A stretch of DNA of 8,861 bases, taken from contig SXKQ01000100.1 of the NCBI GenBank assembly GCA_005778045.1, forward strand, positions 1 to 8,861. The letters are read 5' to 3'. A program made the position numbers and the translations under genes. Position 1 is the first letter of the stretch. Each line of letters starts with the position of its first letter. This stretch comes from Planctomycetia bacterium. Its GTDB lineage: Bacteria; Planctomycetota; UBA1135; GCA-002686595. The notes beneath the pieces were generated by a model. The model saw only the letters and a program-made list of their open reading frames with translations, made no database searches and had not been told where the DNA came from. Below, one piece after another: positions 3,785 through 8,861 of this stretch.

Positions 3785-4351
3785 ATGAAGAATTCGAATT
3801 CAATTCAAGTGCACTCCAAAGCCGTCCTGTTCACGGGGCGAGTCTTCGACGTAGTGCGCGAGGAGATCGAGCTTGCCTCGGGCCTCCGTCAGGACCTCGC
3901 CATCGTGCGCCACCCCGGCGCCGTCGGCGTGGTCGCGATGCAGCCCGATGGACAGGTGCTGCTCGTGCGCCAGTACCGTCACGCGGTGGGGCGAGAGCTG
4001 CTGGAGATCCCGGCCGGCCGGCTGGAGCCGGGCGAAGAGCCGCGCAAGGCCGCCCTGCGTGAGCTCGAGGAGGAAACGGGCTACCGCGCGCAGTCCCTCG
4101 AGCCGCTCGGGAGCTTCTTCCCGGCGCCGGGCTTCTGCTCCGAGGAGCTGCATCTGTTCCTCGCCCGAGATCTCGGCTGGGCCGGACCTGAGCGGGCCGC
4201 CCACGATGCCGACGAGGAGCTCGCCACCGTGCAACTCCCCCTCCGCGAGGCCCTCGAGCGCTGCTCCGTCGATGCCAAGTCGTGGATCGGGCTGTCCCGA
4301 GCCGCCGCGCGACTGTCGATGCCCCCTGAGGGGCCGCCTCCCGACCGGTGA
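3785..4351 (+). CDS. nudF: Nudix hydrolase, ADP-ribose pyrophosphatase type
   Basis: The predicted activity is hydrolysis of ADP-ribose (and similar nucleoside diphosphate sugars) to AMP and ribose 5-phosphate in the cytosol, limiting toxic free ADP-ribose. The protein has 188 residues, close to B. subtilis NudF (about 185). The complete Nudix box reads GRLEPGEEPRKAAL then RELEEETGY at about residues 78-100, with the metal-binding REXXEE core intact. Upstream, RHPGAVGVVAMQPDGQVLLV and the RQYRHAVGRELLEIPAG block are characteristic of the ADP-ribose pyrophosphatase branch. Downstream, LGSFFPAPGFCSEELHLFLA completes it. The ATG at 3785 is preferred because GGAG sits 5 nt before it (3776-3779). 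In-frame starts at 3734 (GTG) and 3749 (ATG) add only a short Arg-rich stretch. The substrate is inferred from motif flavour; other Nudix substrates are possible. Confidence 0.9.
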   Translation: MKNSNSIQVHSKAVLFTGRVFDVVREEIELASGLRQDLAIVRHPGAVGVVAMQPDGQVLLVRQYRHAVGRELLEIPAGRLEPGEEPRKAALRELEEETGYRAQSLEPLGSFFPAPGFCSEELHLFLARDLGWAGPERAAHDADEELATVQLPLREALERCSVDAKSWIGLSRAAARLSMPPEGPPPDR

Positions 4352-4377
4352 CTCTCGGGCCGAGCGCCTTCCTGCGC

Positions 4378-4406
4378 TTGAGACGGCCGCGGCGGAGGGG
4401 TACAAA
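4378..4406 (+). promoter_or_regulatory. Candidate sigma70-type promoter for the response regulator
   Basis: TTGAGA at 4378-4383 (5 of 6 matches to TTGACA) and TACAAA at 4401-4406 (4 of 6 to TATAAT) are separated by exactly 17 nt. The predicted start near 4413 leaves a leader of about 40 nt before the ATG at 4452. It lies just after the nudF stop, so the regulator can probably be transcribed independently. Confidence 0.5.
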
Positions 4407-4451
4407 CGCTGGGGCACGCACTCGCCCGCGGCTTCCCGGCCCGGTCCCACC

Positions 4452-5789
4452 ATGCTCGACCGCATCCTGATCGTCGACGACGAGCCGCTCGTGCTCGAGA
4501 CCCTCTCCGAGGTCCTGAGCTCCGAGGGCTATCCCGTCTCCCAAGCTCCCGACGCACGGGAGGGGCTGGACGTTCTCGCGCGCGAGCCGCACGCACTGGT
4601 GCTTTCGGACATTCGCATGCCGGGCATGGACGGTGTCGAGTTTCTGCGCGAAGTGCGCCGCCTGCATCCGGGCACCGACGTGGTCCTGATGACCGGCTAT
4701 GGCAGCCTCGACGGGGCCATCGACGCGATGGCACTCGGCGCGGCGGACTACCTGATCAAGCCGCTCAAGCCCAAGGAGATCCTCGCGCGCGTGCGCTCGA
4801 TCCTCACGCGCCGCCGGCTCGAGAGCGAAGTGCACTCGCTGCACTCCGCCCTGCGCTCGCGCTACGACATGCACAACCTCGTCGCCGACAGTCCGCGCAT
4901 GAGCGCCCTCGTCGCCGCGGTGCGCCGCGTCAAGGACGGCAGCGAGGCGCTGATGGTCTATGGAGAGTCTGGCAGCGGACGCCACTTCCTCGCCCGCACG
5001 ATCCACTACGCCAGCGAGCGCCGCAGTCATGAGTTCGCGCTCGTCGAAGCGCGCGTGACGGCGCCGCTCGATCTCGCCGCAATGCTGTTCGGCGTGCGCA
5101 CGCCGGGCGGTCGTCGCCGGCGAGGCCTGCTCGAGAAGGTCGAGAAGGGCACAGTCCACATCGCATCCCTCGAGGCGCTGCCCGAGGACCTGCAGCAGCG
5201 GCTCGGGGCTGCGCTCTCGACCCGCAAGCTCGACGTGGGAGAGAAGATCGTCGAGCTCGAGTGCCGCGTGATCATCTCCAGCGACGAGCCTCCGATCGAC
5301 CTGCTAAAATCCGCTCGGCTCGTGAAGGAGCTCGCGCTGCTGCGCGAGTGCCCCGCCCTGCATGTGCCGCCCCTGCGCCAGCGCAAGGAAGACCTCGCCG
5401 GACTGGTGGCCGTGTTCGTGGAGACCTACTCCAGCGAGCACGGGCGTTCCATCCGTGTCGGCTCCGGCGTGATCGAGCTCCTCGCCTCGCACCAGTTCCC
5501 CGGCAACGTGACCCAGTTGTTCGCGGTGCTCACCAACGCGGCCAAGTACTCGGTCGACGGCGATCTGTCGGTGGACTCGATCGAGCGCGCCCTGCGCCAG
5601 TCGATCTTGGCGGAAGACCGTGGCATCGCGGACCACCTCGGTGACCGCGAGTACCAGGTCATCGTGCGCGCCGTGCAGCGCAACCCCGGGCGCCTCGACC
5701 ATGCGGCCAAGGAGCTCGGCATCAGCCGCACGACGCTGTGGCGCCGCATGCGCAAACACGGCATCAAGCTCGAAGGCGAAGAAGAGTGA
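4452..5789 (+). CDS. NtrC-like response regulator with degenerate AAA+ domain and Fis-type HTH
   Basis: This 445-aa cytoplasmic DNA-binding protein has three domains. The receiver (about 1-120) looks functional: acidic pocket Asp9-Asp10, phosphoacceptor Asp53 (SDIRMPGMDG), Thr81 and Lys103 (KPLKP). The central domain (about 140-375) is clearly derived from sigma54-activating AAA+ ATPases but is damaged at key points. Walker A reads GESGSGRH (171-178), with Arg177 replacing the usual Lys. The GAFTGA sigma54-contact loop is absent (VRTPGGRRRRG at 215-225). The Walker B acidic residues are missing (GTVHIASLEALP where family members have GTLFLDEI.ELP). Later landmarks persist (PPLRQRKEDL; QFPGNVTQL for WPGNVREL). 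The C-terminus (about 410-440) is a Fis-type helix-turn-helix, AAKELGISRTTLWRRMRKHG. I infer a regulator that binds DNA but does not hydrolyse ATP or activate sigma54 polymerase. No sensor kinase is in the window. The ATG at 4452 starts the receiver directly. Confidence 0.92.
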   Translation: MLDRILIVDDEPLVLETLSEVLSSEGYPVSQAPDAREGLDVLAREPHALVLSDIRMPGMDGVEFLREVRRLHPGTDVVLMTGYGSLDGAIDAMALGAADYLIKPLKPKEILARVRSILTRRRLESEVHSLHSALRSRYDMHNLVADSPRMSALVAAVRRVKDGSEALMVYGESGSGRHFLARTIHYASERRSHEFALVEARVTAPLDLAAMLFGVRTPGGRRRRGLLEKVEKGTVHIASLEALPEDLQQRLGAALSTRKLDVGEKIVELECRVIISSDEPPIDLLKSARLVKELALLRECPALHVPPLRQRKEDLAGLVAVFVETYSSEHGRSIRVGSGVIELLASHQFPGNVTQLFAVLTNAAKYSVDGDLSVDSIERALRQSILAEDRGIADHLGDREYQVIVRAVQRNPGRLDHAAKELGISRTTLWRRMRKHGIKLEGEEE

Positions 5790-5820: not shown

Positions 5821-6870
5821 TCAACGCACGCACTCCACGTCGACGAGATAGCCGAAGCCGCCCTGACCCGGCACGCTTCCCCCAGCCGCATCCAAGCACA
5901 GGAGCGCACCCGGGGCCGCGATCCAGACGCTGCCATCGTTTCCAACGCTGGCTCGACTGGCGCCCACGTGCGCGAGTCCGATATGGGCGAGCTCGAGCGA
6001 CCCGCCGGGCCCGAAGCGACGCACGAGCGCGCCCTCTCCGTCGCACAGCCAGACACGCTCCGCTTCGCGCACGGGCGTGAGCGTGAGCGCGGCGAGGCCC
6101 GCGGGCACCACCCAGCGCGGAGCAAGGTCGCGACCGAGCAGCGCGAGTCGCGTGCCTCCCGCACCACCCGCCGCATCGAGCACCCACCAAGTGCCCGACT
6201 CCGGCCCCGGCGCGAGGTCGCTGAGGACACCGCCGAAGTCCCTGCGCGCGAGCCGCTGCCCATCGGGACCGAAGAGCCGCAGCTCCCCACGCTCGGATCC
6301 GACCAGCGTGCATCCGAAGGCCGCCGCCGCGCAGAAGGCGTCCTCGCTCCGCTCGACCATCGTGACCGCGCCCGTCGGCGACACCCGCACGACCTGCCGG
6401 GCTCCGGTGGATCCGAACTCGACGGCGAGCACGGCGCCCGAGCCACCCTCGATGGACTCCAGATCGAGCACCGGACCGAGCGCGAGCTCCCGCTCGATGC
6501 GCCCGCTCTCGTCCTCGACGAGCAGCAGGCGGTGCGGCCCCACCGGCCCCGCGGCACCGGCGCAGGCGACCCACAGGTCTCCATCGGGTCCGAGCGCGAG
6601 CTCGACCGGCGACTCCAGCGCGATGCGACGGACCACGAGCCGCTCGCGATCGAGCCCCACGACGGCGCCCCCATCACGATCGGCCAGCCAAGCCGCCACG
6701 GGTCCGCCCCCCGACGCCCCCGACGCACCAAACGCCCCCGACGCCCCCAAGGCCCCCGACGTGAGCCCGAGCAGCGCGCCACCCACCGCTGCGCCCGCCG
6801 CGACCCACACGCCGCTGCGCCCGGCTCCTCGAACGACCGTCGCAACCGAGTCCCGCCCCCCGCTGTCCAT
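5821..6870 (-). CDS. Membrane-anchored NHL/SMP-30-like beta-propeller protein
   Basis: This is a 349-aa protein of unconfirmed function. An N-terminal hydrophobic helix (about 20-37) preceded by Arg14 and Arg18 predicts an uncleaved anchor with the rest outside the cytoplasm. A low-complexity Gly/Ala/Ser linker (about 38-56) follows. Residues about 58-349 repeat short beta-strand blade motifs: WLADRDGGAVVGLD, DLWVACAG, TWWVLDAAGG, RVWLCDGEGALVRRFG and SVWIAAPGALLCLD. Such spacing is typical of NHL or SMP-30-like propellers, which bind ligands or partners. The ATG at 6870 is supported by GGAGGG 5 nt upstream (6876-6881). It lies 71 nt after the candidate selenoprotein on the same strand and is convergent with the response regulator, whose stop is 31 nt away. 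It may be the last gene of the oxidase operon or separately transcribed. No catalytic residues are recognised. Confidence 0.75.
   Translation of the reverse strand: MDSGGRDSVATVVRGAGRSGVWVAAGAAVGGALLGLTSGALGASGAFGASGASGGGPVAAWLADRDGGAVVGLDRERLVVRRIALESPVELALGPDGDLWVACAGAAGPVGPHRLLLVEDESGRIERELALGPVLDLESIEGGSGAVLAVEFGSTGARQVVRVSPTGAVTMVERSEDAFCAAAAFGCTLVGSERGELRLFGPDGQRLARRDFGGVLSDLAPGPESGTWWVLDAAGGAGGTRLALLGRDLAPRWVVPAGLAALTLTPVREAERVWLCDGEGALVRRFGPGGSLELAHIGLAHVGASRASVGNDGSVWIAAPGALLCLDAAGGSVPGQGGFGYLVDVECVR
6705..6762 (-). repeat. Degenerate 9-nt repeats / G-run cluster encoding the Gly-Ala-Ser linker
   Basis: The coding strand carries GGGGCGTCG-like units encoding Gly-Ala-Ser. Five runs of five or six G are separated by CCTT, CGTC, a 13-nt gap and CGTC. 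The repeats form the flexible linker between the membrane anchor and the beta-propeller. The G-runs could fold in DNA or mRNA, but the 13-nt gap breaks the canonical G-quadruplex rule. Confidence 0.7.
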
Positions 6871-6941
6871 GTATGCCCTCCGCTCCCCCGTCGCTCGGGA
6901 GCCGCGGCAGTCGCGGGGCAATCGAGGAAAAAGTGCGCGCC

Positions 6942-7238
6942 TTAGCGCTGCTCGTCCGTGTCCCAGCGCATCGCGCCGGGGGTCGAGATCTGCTCGCCCC
7001 GCGCCCGCCGCGTGTCCGCGTTCCGGAACGAACGCCAGACGACGAAGCCGAAGCCCGCCGGGATCAGGAACACCATCGAAATCATGAACAGCACACTGGT
7101 GTTGATGCCCGCAGCCAGGTTCCCGCCTTCGGAGGCGACCGCCTCCTTGCAGCTCTCTCAGGCATAGCCCGTCGCACGCAGCACGACGACCGCGAGCAGC
7201 GGTGCGGCAAGGCGAGCGAAACGGGCGCGGGCTCTCAT
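6942..7238 (-). CDS. Candidate selenoprotein: small membrane UxxC protein of the cytochrome oxidase cluster (UGA at codon 27)
   Basis: I read 98 residues from the ATG at 7238 to TAA at 6944-6942 if TGA codon 27 (7160-7158) is decoded as selenocysteine. Residues 1-26 form a signal-type segment: Arg-rich start, hydrophobic APLLAVVVL, ending GYA. Then Sec27-Glu-Ser-Cys30-Lys gives a UxxC motif. Residues 45-67 are a clear transmembrane helix (NTSVLFMISMVFLIPAGFGF). The Arg-rich tail (69-98) should be cytoplasmic, which places UxxC outside. Coding character continues past TGA: 66 of the 71 downstream codons end in G or C, and there is no plausible restart before the transmembrane helix. A SECIS-like hairpin follows the UGA. 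The gene starts 11 nt after ctaM, which follows sco, so a role in copper or thiol/selenol redox handling during CuA or oxidase assembly is inferred. I recall small Cys-x-x-Cys-Lys membrane proteins near oxidase genes in other bacteria, but could not check this. The alternative is a nonsense mutation or sequencing error in a Cys codon (TGC to TGA). Confidence 0.8.
7131..7160 (-). promoter_or_regulatory. Candidate bacterial SECIS element with Sec UGA codon
   Basis: On the minus strand the UGA (7160-7158) is followed by 11 nt and then GGAGGC-GGUC-GCCUCC (7146-7131), a perfect 6-bp GC-rich stem with a GGUC loop. Bacterial SECIS elements lie inside the coding region just after the UGA, with a G (usually GU) in the apical loop, and bind SelB. 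The loop sequence and the 11-nt spacing match what I remember of E. coli fdhF. The loop starts 17 nt after UGA, near the 5' end of the range normally accepted. A weaker competing hairpin, GCCU-CCGA-AGGC, overlaps the 3' arm. Confidence 0.75.
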
Positions 7239-7249
7239 GACCAAGGATT

Positions 7250-7690
7250 CTAGGATACAGCCGGCGTCGGATTCAGGTGGTAGAGCACGACATACACCGC
7301 CACGCCCGTCACCGAGACGTACAGCCAGATCGGGAACGTCCACTTCGCCAGCTTGCGGTGTGCTTCCCAGCGCTCCTTGTGCGCCAGCCAGAAGGTGCGC
7401 AGCACCATCGGCAGGTTGACGACCGCGAGCACCGTGTGACTCAGGAGCAGCGCGAGATAGCCCGTGCGCGCGAGCCCCTCGCCGTGGAAGCGCGTCGGCT
7501 GCCCCTTGGCGATCGCGAAGTGGTAGTAGAGATAGCAAGCGAGGAACGCCGCGCTCGCGACGAAGGCGAGCTTCATGGAGCGCTCATGCAGGTCGCGTCG
7601 TCCGCCCTTGATGGCGAGCAGTCCGGCCACGAGGAAAGCGGCTGCGACGCCGTTGAGCGTCGCGTTGACCGCCGGCAAGTGCACGTTCAT
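7250..7690 (-). CDS. ctaM: DUF420 / CtaM-like cytochrome oxidase maturation membrane protein
   Basis: This 146-aa integral membrane protein has four predicted helices at about 10-27, 40-58, 76-99 and 117-138. Histidines lie in or next to membrane segments (His35, His57, His85, His111, His138), the pattern of the DUF420 family. Recognisable stretches are LHERSMKLAF (34-43), YYHF (55-58), LLLSHTVLAVVNLP (81-94) and HRKLAKWTFPIWLYVSVTGV (111-130). Family members called CtaM or YozB are required in Firmicutes for activity of haem-A-containing terminal oxidases. The mechanism is not settled; haem or copper insertion has been suggested. The ATG at 7690 overlaps the TGA of sco (ATGA), indicating translational coupling. 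The candidate selenoprotein begins 11 nt after its TAG. The gene name is transferred by family resemblance and context. Confidence 0.88.
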   Translation of the reverse strand: MNVHLPAVNATLNGVAAAFLVAGLLAIKGGRRDLHERSMKLAFVASAAFLACYLYYHFAIAKGQPTRFHGEGLARTGYLALLLSHTVLAVVNLPMVLRTFWLAHKERWEAHRKLAKWTFPIWLYVSVTGVAVYVVLYHLNPTPAVS

Positions 7691-8325
7691 GCGTCGGGAT
7701 TCCCTTCCAGCCAGCGCGCGCGCGCGACGGCGGCCTCGACGCCGGCCTCGCTCTCGCCGTCGTACATGCCGCGGATCACGCCGTGACCGTCGAGCACGAT
7801 CAACCGCGTCGAGTGCGTCACGCGCATGCCGAGCGCCGCCTCCGCATTCTTGCTCCGCGCCAGCCACAGAGAGCGCAGCACACCGTCGATCTGCTCCTCA
7901 GCGCCCGTGAGGAAGCACCAGCGCTCCGCGTCCGCCCCATGCTCCTTCGCATAGGCCGCGAGAACCTCGGGCGAGTCCGTCTCCGGGTCGACCGAGAAGG
8001 TCGCGAGCCGAACGCGCGAGCCCGCGGTCTTCTGCTGGACCTGCGCCATGTTCGCGGAAACGCGCGGGCATGGCCCCGTGCAGGTCGTGAAGATGAAGTC
8101 GAGCACCAGTGGCGCCCCTGCGAAGTCCGCGCGCGTCAACTTGCGCCCGAGCTGGTCCACGAGCTCGAATTCGGCGAGCACATCGCCGCGGAACGGGGAA
8201 CTCCGCTCCACATCGAGGCGCGTCACCGCCGACTTCGCGGGCGCGTCGCTCCCACGCGAGCATCCGCCGGAGACGAGCACGGCGACCGCAAGGGTCGCCG
8301 CGCCGAGGAACTGCGCTCGTCTCAT
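7687..8325 (-). CDS. sco: SCO1/SenC-family copper chaperone, probable lipoprotein
   Basis: SCO proteins are thioredoxin-fold copper-binding proteins that metallate or redox-prepare the CuA site of cytochrome oxidase subunit II on the outer face of the membrane. This 212-aa protein starts MRRAQFLGAATLAVAVLVSGGC. That is a short basic N-region, a hydrophobic core and Cys22 in a lipobox-like position, though Ser at -3 makes the lipobox imperfect. The copper motif FTTCTGPCP holds Cys82 and Cys86 (CxxxCP). The third ligand is His171 in RVTHSTRLIVLD. ATFSVDPETDSPEVLAAYA (108-126) is the typical SCO middle block. The ATG at 8325 follows the cox4 stop by 8 nt; longer in-frame readings run into cox4 and are rejected. 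The stop overlaps the ctaM start by ATGA. All known SCO ligands are present, so it should be functional. Confidence 0.95.
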   Translation of the reverse strand: MRRAQFLGAATLAVAVLVSGGCSRGSDAPAKSAVTRLDVERSSPFRGDVLAEFELVDQLGRKLTRADFAGAPLVLDFIFTTCTGPCPRVSANMAQVQQKTAGSRVRLATFSVDPETDSPEVLAAYAKEHGADAERWCFLTGAEEQIDGVLRSLWLARSKNAEAALGMRVTHSTRLIVLDGHGVIRGMYDGESEAGVEAAVARARWLEGNPDA

Positions 8326-8333
8326 GGGCGTCC

Positions 8334-8756
8334 CTAGTGACCGGCAGCCTCGCCGCCCGCTTCGGGCGTGTGGCCGTGCGGCTTGCCGCGGCCCAGAGCC
8401 GGATGCTCGGGATCGAGACCGTTCACGACCTCGCCCGTCTCGTCGATCAAGTAGCCGATCTTGTAGTCGCGCTTCTCGTTGAACACCGTGTCGGGCAAAT
8501 TCGCGCACAAGACGACCGCCACCAGCAGCGGCGTCGGCAGGATCAGCGACCACACGATCATCTTCTCGAACCGCATGTGCATGAAGTACATGAGGATCAG
8601 TAGGCCCTTCCACAGGGCGCAGACCAGTAGGCCCGACCAGAGCAACCAGCGCGGCTCGCGCAGGAACATGCCCCACGCCACCTCCACCGCCGTCAGGACG
8701 AAGAGGATGACGAAAATGCGCCCGATGCTGTAACCCATGTCCTTGCCGTGTGCCAT
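8334..8756 (-). CDS. Cytochrome c oxidase subunit IV (prokaryotic type) with long His-containing C-terminal tail
   Basis: This is a small structural subunit of the haem-copper oxidase, 140 aa, with three membrane helices at about 10-29, 36-57 and 67-87. The family hallmark ALWKGLLILMYFMHMRFE is at 47-64. The E. coli counterpart CyoD has its N-terminus inside and C-terminus outside, and the same topology is expected here. Residues 88-140 form an extra hydrophilic tail ending in a Gly/His-rich stretch (His118, His127, His129, His140). Prokaryotic subunit IV proteins are usually only about 95-110 aa, so this is an extension. The ATG at 8756 has a strong ribosome-binding site, GGAGG, 7 nt upstream (8764-8768). 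It begins 14 nt after the cox3 stop and ends 8 nt before sco, within the operon. Confidence 0.9.
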   Translation of the reverse strand: MAHGKDMGYSIGRIFVILFVLTAVEVAWGMFLREPRWLLWSGLLVCALWKGLLILMYFMHMRFEKMIVWSLILPTPLLVAVVLCANLPDTVFNEKRDYKIGYLIDETGEVVNGLDPEHPALGRGKPHGHTPEAGGEAAGH

Positions 8757-8770
8757 GTTCGTTCCTCCGC

Positions 8771-8861
8771 TCACATCAGGTAGACGATGGTAAAGAGCAG
8801 CACCCACACGAGGTCGACGAAGTGCCAGGAGAGACCGGCGAGCTCGACCTTCATGTACTTC
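8771..8861 (-). CDS. coxC: Cytochrome c oxidase subunit III, C-terminal end only
   Basis: Only the last 29 codons and the TGA (8773-8771) are inside the window; the gene continues beyond the right edge. The peptide ends GLSWHFVDLVWVLLFTIVYLM, which closely matches the final membrane helix of haem-copper oxidase subunit III (WHFVDxVW.xLF..VYL). It is therefore a core subunit of the terminal oxidase and anchors the operon as cytochrome-oxidase related. The stop is followed after 14 nt by cox4. Nothing can be said about its start, promoter or full domain content. Confidence 0.92.
   Translation of the reverse strand, partial: KYMKVELAGLSWHFVDLVWVLLFTIVYLM

Follow-up and report, generated by a model that had tools for sequence, protein, structure and literature searches.

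The closest described systems are the UxxC and CxxU selenoproteins of bacteria and the proteins that help to build cytochrome oxidase. The bSECIS model given in the accessible text of a 2026 selenoproteome review has a loop of 3-9 nt, a stem of 4-16 bp, a G in the first two loop positions, a distance of 16-37 nt from the UGA and a folding energy of -7.5 kcal/mol or lower, and the same text states that most characterised selenoproteins have a thioredoxin-like fold (PMC13188914). Planctomycetes from Porphyra have a full Sec insertion system, and the selenoproteins named in the accessible part of that paper are fdhA and fmdB, the full list being in its supplementary table S9 (PMC4807772). TlpA of Bradyrhizobium, a membrane-anchored thioredoxin-like protein, keeps the CuA site and SCO reduced, many bacteria are without TlpA, and CtaM is important for CuB assembly or another late step, as set out in the accessible text of PMC9145763.

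We have analysed here a small gene within a stretch of planctomycete DNA of 8,861 nucleotides (the window), and we consider it very probable on the sequence evidence that, whatever its mechanism, this is a real selenoprotein gene of an oxidase operon. The gene shares with the UxxC and CxxU selenoproteins of bacteria an in-frame UGA, a putative bSECIS downstream of it, homologues with Cys, and a Sec machinery, found here in the nearest genome. It shares with TlpA a proposed job, in which the Cys residues of SCO and the CuA site are kept reduced outside the membrane (PMC9145763, accessible text), but unlike TlpA it encodes only 98 residues and no thioredoxin-fold domain recognizable by sequence, either with Pfam or in the PDB, where nothing matched below E 0.36. 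CtaM (DUF420) and SCO are encoded in the same cluster and belong to the same presumed process, although they are of different families and are neighbours of the candidate rather than its relatives.

The family is missing from the 119 families and subfamilies in Table 1 of the selenoproteome review, the main text of which does not contain the string 'planctomycet', and none of the families in its accessible text is a small protein of such a kind in a cytochrome oxidase operon (PMC13188914). No NCBIfam 20.0 model was over cut-off for the eight sequences tested, and Pfam gave nothing over cut-off for the window protein; across 33 members the only Pfam domain was DUF6338, in one member (E 0.0088, cut-off not given). 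Weak Pfam and NCBIfam matches such as Neurokinin B and NapE were below cut-off and were set aside. A search by title and the start of the abstract, in a literature made up mostly of papers outside subscription, returned no paper on the family. We know of no earlier selenoprotein of oxidase biogenesis.

The gene and its oxidase neighbourhood

The frame runs on the minus strand from an ATG at 7238 through a TGA at codon 27 (7160-7158) and 71 sense codons to a TAA, and with the TGA written as U the product is MRARARFARLAAPLLAVVVLRATGYA-U-ESCKEAVASEGGNLAAGINTSVLFMISMVFLIPAGFGFVVWRSFRNADTRRARGEQISTPGAMRWDTDEQR, followed by the TAA (Table 1). The sequence-only reading had placed a gene here without naming a strand; the gene is present on the minus strand, and the plus strand of 6942..7238 does not hold the gene described. 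A recount agrees exactly with its figures of a TGA at codon 27 and, after it, 71 codons of which 66 have G or C in third position; before the TGA the corresponding number is 19 of 26. The window contains many overlapping ORFs of at least 60 residues (ORF list), and because the DNA is GC-rich, an open frame with high GC3 is by itself little proof; it is conservation that raises this frame above chance. For six sequences (the window and L001-L005, giving 15 pairs), pN/pS after the TGA is 0.20 in the gene frame versus 2.6 in the other two frames, and 0.61 in the gene frame before the TGA. A scan of genome contigs gave the five planctomycete loci L001-L005, each of which has its TGA at the codon seen in the window, and the nearest locus (L001) is 94.0% identical to the window across 7,952 bp.

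Table 1. Features of the candidate gene and its neighbours in the window
Feature	Position	Strand	Basis
Putative selenoprotein gene, 98 residues, Sec at residue 27, stop TAA	6942..7238	-	frame and conserved TGA
UGA codon, in all likelihood read as selenocysteine (residue 27)	7158..7160	-	kept in relatives
U-E-S-C motif, aligned with CxxC of Cys homologues	7149..7160	-	alignment and motif counts
Putative bSECIS hairpin GGAGGC-GGUC-GCCUCC	7131..7146	-	loop 17 nt past the UGA; folding energy of this hairpin -10.4 kcal/mol
N-terminal hydrophobic segment, signal peptide or first helix, GYA before Sec	7164..7217	-	limits are our reading
Predicted membrane helix, residues 48-69	7032..7097	-	hydropathy; limits are our reading
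Arg-rich tail, predicted cytoplasmic	6945..7031	-	positive-inside rule
DUF420 protein (CtaM family), directly upstream	7250..7690	-	Pfam PF04238, E 1.1e-41
SCO1/SenC protein, CTGPC motif	7687..8325	-	Pfam PF02630, E 9.9e-26, tested from 8253; start at 8325 is our reading
Cytochrome c oxidase subunit IV (COX4), prokaryotic	8334..8807	-	Pfam PF03626, E 4.6e-13

Placement of the gene in a cytochrome oxidase operon, as the sequence-only reading had it, is borne out well beyond the window. The gap between the DUF420 stop and the candidate start is 11 nt, and in all 30 of the best-scoring class loci (29 UxxC and one CxxC) the candidate is directly preceded, on its own strand, by a DUF420 ORF, the largest gap between the two being about 250 nt (L030); SCO is found in 28 and COX4 in 24 of these loci within a flank of about 1.5 kb. 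At L003 the order is COX1, a UbiA-family protein (by its position presumably CtaB), COX3, COX4, SCO, DUF420 and the candidate. Among 20 phylum loci chosen by hand (10 UxxC, 5 CxxU and 5 CxxC), DUF420 is just upstream in 15, oxidase or assembly genes are nearby in 18, and the stretches fetched around L199 and L201, both CxxU, contain no oxidase genes near the candidate. COX3 matches overlying DUF420 in the phylum loci appear to be cross-matches of an iterated profile and were ignored. At L195 and L196 the oxidase genes near the candidate differ in strand or in order; the cluster is rearranged there while the neighbourhood persists.

Several other parts of the window may be described briefly. 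At the extreme end of the record, within positions 1-86, a 42-bp unit occurs in two perfect copies, which is either a real repeat or an assembly edge. On the plus strand, an ORF at about 4350-5789 reads as an NtrC-like response regulator, in which the Walker motif (GESGSGRHF) seems to be degenerate, as does the sigma-54 loop, where no GAFTGA is seen. The protein encoded on the minus strand at 5821-6921, just downstream of the candidate, has only weak NHL or propeller-like Pfam matches below cut-off, and the one Rfam match in the window is below the gathering threshold. Among viral contigs, 33 stretches matched a pattern and none encoded a relative, and plasmid records gave no match to 5821-8861.

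Exchange of selenocysteine and cysteine across the family

Relatives were recovered by a protein search (5 among 20 candidates), by a profile search (102 among 2346 candidates) and by a third, broader profile search that gave 1004 proteins at E of at most 0.001 among 7993 scored candidates, with no precomputed Pfam domain in the 120 of those 1004 matches that were listed. They are of two main sorts, full-length Cys forms with motifs such as CESC, CEMC, CAMC, CPMC and others, and short entries that start after the site. The latter (P0005 with 78 residues and P0022 with 48 are examples) begin past the site, as in MCKEAV..., which is what would be expected if a gene caller had met a UGA. The genome searches matched 56 of 154 genomes in the class and 112 of 392 drawn from the phylum. 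Six weak places of the class search (the second G057 match, G072, G059, G035, G036 and G098) and five of the phylum search (G269, G386, the second G343 match, G254 and G377) were left out, L086, L087, L088, L089 and L096 are duplicates of class loci, and L177 and L183, which are without a U/C-x-x-U/C motif, stand outside the set.

The resulting 147 sequences with a motif (the window, 51 from the class and 95 from elsewhere in the phylum) comprise 68 UxxC, 13 CxxU and 66 CxxC forms, the CxxU loci being L149, L159, L160, L161, L164, L165, L168, L169, L172, L174, L178, L181 and L182; 81 of the 147 sequences thus have a UGA in one of the two motif Cys columns. In alignment A4 (33 rows, with Sec written as Cys) positions 27 and 30 are invariant, and besides these two motif Cys five further columns show no variation (A, S, L, F and M52, the last inside the membrane helix), which makes seven invariant columns in all. 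A wide alignment of 45 rows contains no stretch conserved enough for scanning. These counts and the invariance in A4 supply the homologues with Cys or Sec at residue 27 that the sequence-only reading had looked to for support, and its concern that the TGA might be a sequencing slip is answered by recurrence of the TGA in tens of separately assembled species genomes. On a tree of the 147 rows, parsimony gives 16 state changes and 19 of 144 inner branches are starred, but because the starred branches force only one change per group we claim no number of independent gains of Sec.

Two loci outside the set are peculiar. L177 reads Q-S-A-K-U-U-E on its minus strand at about 514-519, with two adjacent UGA codons where relatives show CxxU, and an ACCCUC/GAGGGU stretch follows the paired codons; it may encode a vicinal double Sec, or else the copy may be broken. 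L183 is a weak family match in which S-C-U-P replaces the usual motif.

The hairpin past the UGA and the decoding machinery

The window hairpin begins 11 nt downstream of the UGA and falls within the limits in the accessible text of PMC13188914, with its GGUC loop, 6 bp, 17 nt and -10.4 kcal/mol. A GGU-loop hairpin is present in 59 of 68 UxxC and 11 of 13 CxxU genes (70 of 81 Sec forms) versus four of 66 Cys forms, the latter counted from either Cys codon, and in 11.2% of codon-shuffled Sec genes; the simple GGU hairpin is missing from nine UxxC genes of the 68 and from two of the 13 CxxU genes (L161 and L182). A scan that takes unbroken stems only finds agreement with all of the published bSECIS limits, as given in the accessible text of the review, in 51/68 UxxC and 5/13 CxxU genes (56/81 Sec forms), versus 5/66 and 9/66 Cys forms (measured from the first and second Cys codon respectively) and 179/1620 shuffles.

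Codon use points the same way. Synonymous difference (pS) across the six relatives is 0.000 in the six stem codons, KEAVAS, versus 0.393 in the 56 codons after them, and the Val at residue +7 is encoded by GTC in 60 of 60 UxxC versus 7 of 10 CxxC sequences. Over 45 Sec sites from the class and the window (43 of them distinct), 88.4% of stem cells are paired versus a shuffled mean of 83.0, and partners slid out of register are paired in 33 to 73%. In 10 cells both partners of a pair have changed, versus a shuffled mean of 2.2, with none of 500 shuffles as high; the pairs showing such change number three, a count that 71 of 500 shuffles reach. Folding of a 63-nt stretch contains the hairpin with a stability z of 0.15 relative to shuffles, which is no excess, and energy alone is therefore no marker of a SECIS here. 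A covariance model built from 45 class sites, which carries a sequence signal besides a structure signal, matched 16 of 23 UxxC loci outside the training set at E <0.01 and none of 73 CxxC or CxxU loci; when the limit is relaxed to E 1, matches appear in five CxxC loci (E 0.019 to 0.86).

Spacing between the UGA and the hairpin is informative as well. The distance from the first UGA base to the GGU is 21 to 24 nt in CxxU genes versus 20 in 50 of 59 UxxC genes, and the hairpin therefore holds a nearly constant distance from a UGA that has moved by 9 nt; the alignment of three CxxU sites serves as an illustration of the CxxU hairpin only. In a subgroup of seven loci (L039, L042, L047, L048, L049, L051 and L065) there is no longer a GGUC hairpin of the usual kind, and a hairpin with a GGGU loop is found 17 nt beyond its place, as though the SECIS had been relocated. 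L182 has no GGU hairpin, a GGC-loop hairpin that fits the published limits, and no selA in its genome (G434), and we regard it as a doubtful Sec form.

The genome that is closest to the window (G001, 94% identical over 7,952 bp) encodes selA, selB, selD and a tRNA-Sec (selC) with a UCA anticodon, so that the full Sec machinery, which the sequence-only reading had asked for in the source genome, is seen in this close relative. Over the cut-off, selA and selD are found in 5/5 of the five nearest genomes and selB and tRNA-Sec in 4/5 each, selB being missing in G005 and tRNA-Sec in G004, and ARAGORN reads the tRNA-Sec anticodon in the nearest genomes as TCA. The selD of all five nearest genomes (L057-L061) has one in-frame TGA of its own, and is probably itself a selenoprotein of a known family. 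Of the 154 genomes of the class, 139 have a selA match over cut-off, and by the form read these include 44 of 45 Sec-form genomes (the exception is G034) and also 6 of 6 Cys-form genomes, so that within the class the machinery is no predictor of the form. Outside the class selA is over cut-off in 32 of 35 Sec-form versus 17 of 45 Cys-form genomes (Fisher p 6.4e-7, with kinship ignored), a comparison covering 80 of 92 genomes, namely every one of the 35 with a Sec form and 45 of the 57 with a Cys form.

We consider it almost certain, from these sequence comparisons, that the UGA is decoded as Sec by way of the downstream bSECIS, SelB and tRNA-Sec; the hairpin and SelB with its tRNA-Sec would together cause the codon at 7160-7158 to be read as selenocysteine rather than as a stop. 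The selenoprotein interpretation put forward in the sequence-only reading is supported, and none of the tests run refuted it. A true stop at the UGA would leave a 26-residue leader and at most a shorter protein re-initiated downstream, and the many database entries that start after the site, the in-frame ATG codons downstream and the pN/pS of 0.61 before the TGA could all be accommodated in this way. However, the full-length Cys homologues read straight through the site, the UGA recurs at a motif Cys column in more than half of the 147 sequences, and a leader with a restart predicts neither the SECIS hairpin nor the synonymous freeze over its stem, and we regard a true stop as very improbable. 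Reassignment of UGA genome-wide to another residue such as Trp or Gly, which an in-frame UGA by itself cannot separate from Sec, has a negligible chance of being correct, since 48 of 68 UxxC genes use UGA as their own stop and it is thus not reassigned throughout, no internal TGA occurs among the selA matches listed, and the counterpart residue in relatives is Cys rather than Trp or Gly.

Topology and a plausible role in oxidase maturation

Hydropathy shows a strong membrane segment after the motif (about residues 46-67) and a weaker, signal-peptide-like hydrophobic segment before it (about residues 7-28). The proposal in the sequence-only reading of a single membrane helix agrees with the strong segment, and holds only if the weaker first segment is cleaved. 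The N-terminus is positive in 114 of 147 sequences and the tail in 101, and from these charges the UxxC pair is predicted to face outward from the cytoplasmic membrane. Immediately ahead of the motif, 121/147 sequences have A, G, S or T at residue -1, and 135/147 have one of AGSTVIL at residue -3, which makes cleavage just before the Sec possible.

The product would be a small membrane protein with a Sec-x-x-Cys on the outer face, situated between the N-terminal segment and the helix, and its gene stands at the end of a cluster for a heme-copper oxidase, following SCO and DUF420/CtaM. The gene order makes it likely that the protein works with SCO and DUF420/CtaM in oxidase maturation, and a small selenol/thiol protein beside these two could act either as a reductant or in handing on copper. 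The mechanism that we prefer is one in which the selenol/thiol pair would hold the copper-binding Cys residues of SCO and subunit II in the reduced state, or would pass on Cu(I), at the surface of the membrane. We put the chances of a reductant role at about even, and a role as a copper ligand seems to us a lesser possibility. The presence of Sec at either position would fit a selenenylsulfide or a metal pair better than a strictly one-sided nucleophile.

The likeliest of the competing models is a Cu(I) chaperone, in which the pair of S or Se atoms would carry copper destined for SCO or CuB, with no exchange of electrons. Gene order with SCO and CtaM is as expected for such a protein, and Sec at either position would be no less natural in a symmetric ligand pair than in a redox pair; set against this, no further His or Cys ligand is invariant in A4, and most uncharacterised selenoproteins are likely to be redox proteins according to the accessible text of PMC13188914. 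We think the chaperone model less likely than not. Alternatively, the protein might be a small permanent oxidase subunit in which the UxxC senses redox state or stabilises the complex, a model in keeping with one or two membrane segments and with a gene co-encoded with COX1, COX3 and COX4. However, the gene adjoins SCO and DUF420 rather than the subunit genes, and no solved chain in the PDB matched by sequence below E 0.36, and we think a permanent subunit unlikely. Heme c can be attached at a CxxCK motif with lysine as a ligand, as in NrfA, and a Lys does follow the second Cys or Sec in 96 of the 147 sequences. This residue is R in 24, though, and something else in 27 (A 10, S 7, G 5, Q 3, V 1 and Y 1), it is never H and there is no CxxCH among the 147, and a Cys that forms a thioether with heme would hardly be expected to give way to Sec at one position or the other; a c-type cytochrome is thus highly improbable, and we have dropped it.

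Returning to the selenol/thiol pair, we think there is an even chance that this phylum-wide family of tiny membrane proteins represents a selenium-dependent step in building the oxidase, in which Sec can occupy either position of an exposed Sec/Cys pair, the SECIS shifts along with it, and Sec is perhaps the mature N-terminus. Gene callers report the Sec members of a widespread family as fragments. Since some members have Sec in place of the first Cys, some in place of the second and others not at all, the contribution of selenium to a CxxC site can be compared within the family as nature has varied it. The protein would be a candidate for reducing subunit II where TlpA is absent, a step left to unnamed enzymes in the accessible text of PMC9145763. 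If this is true, selenium would be tied to the aerobic respiratory chain of a large environmental phylum.
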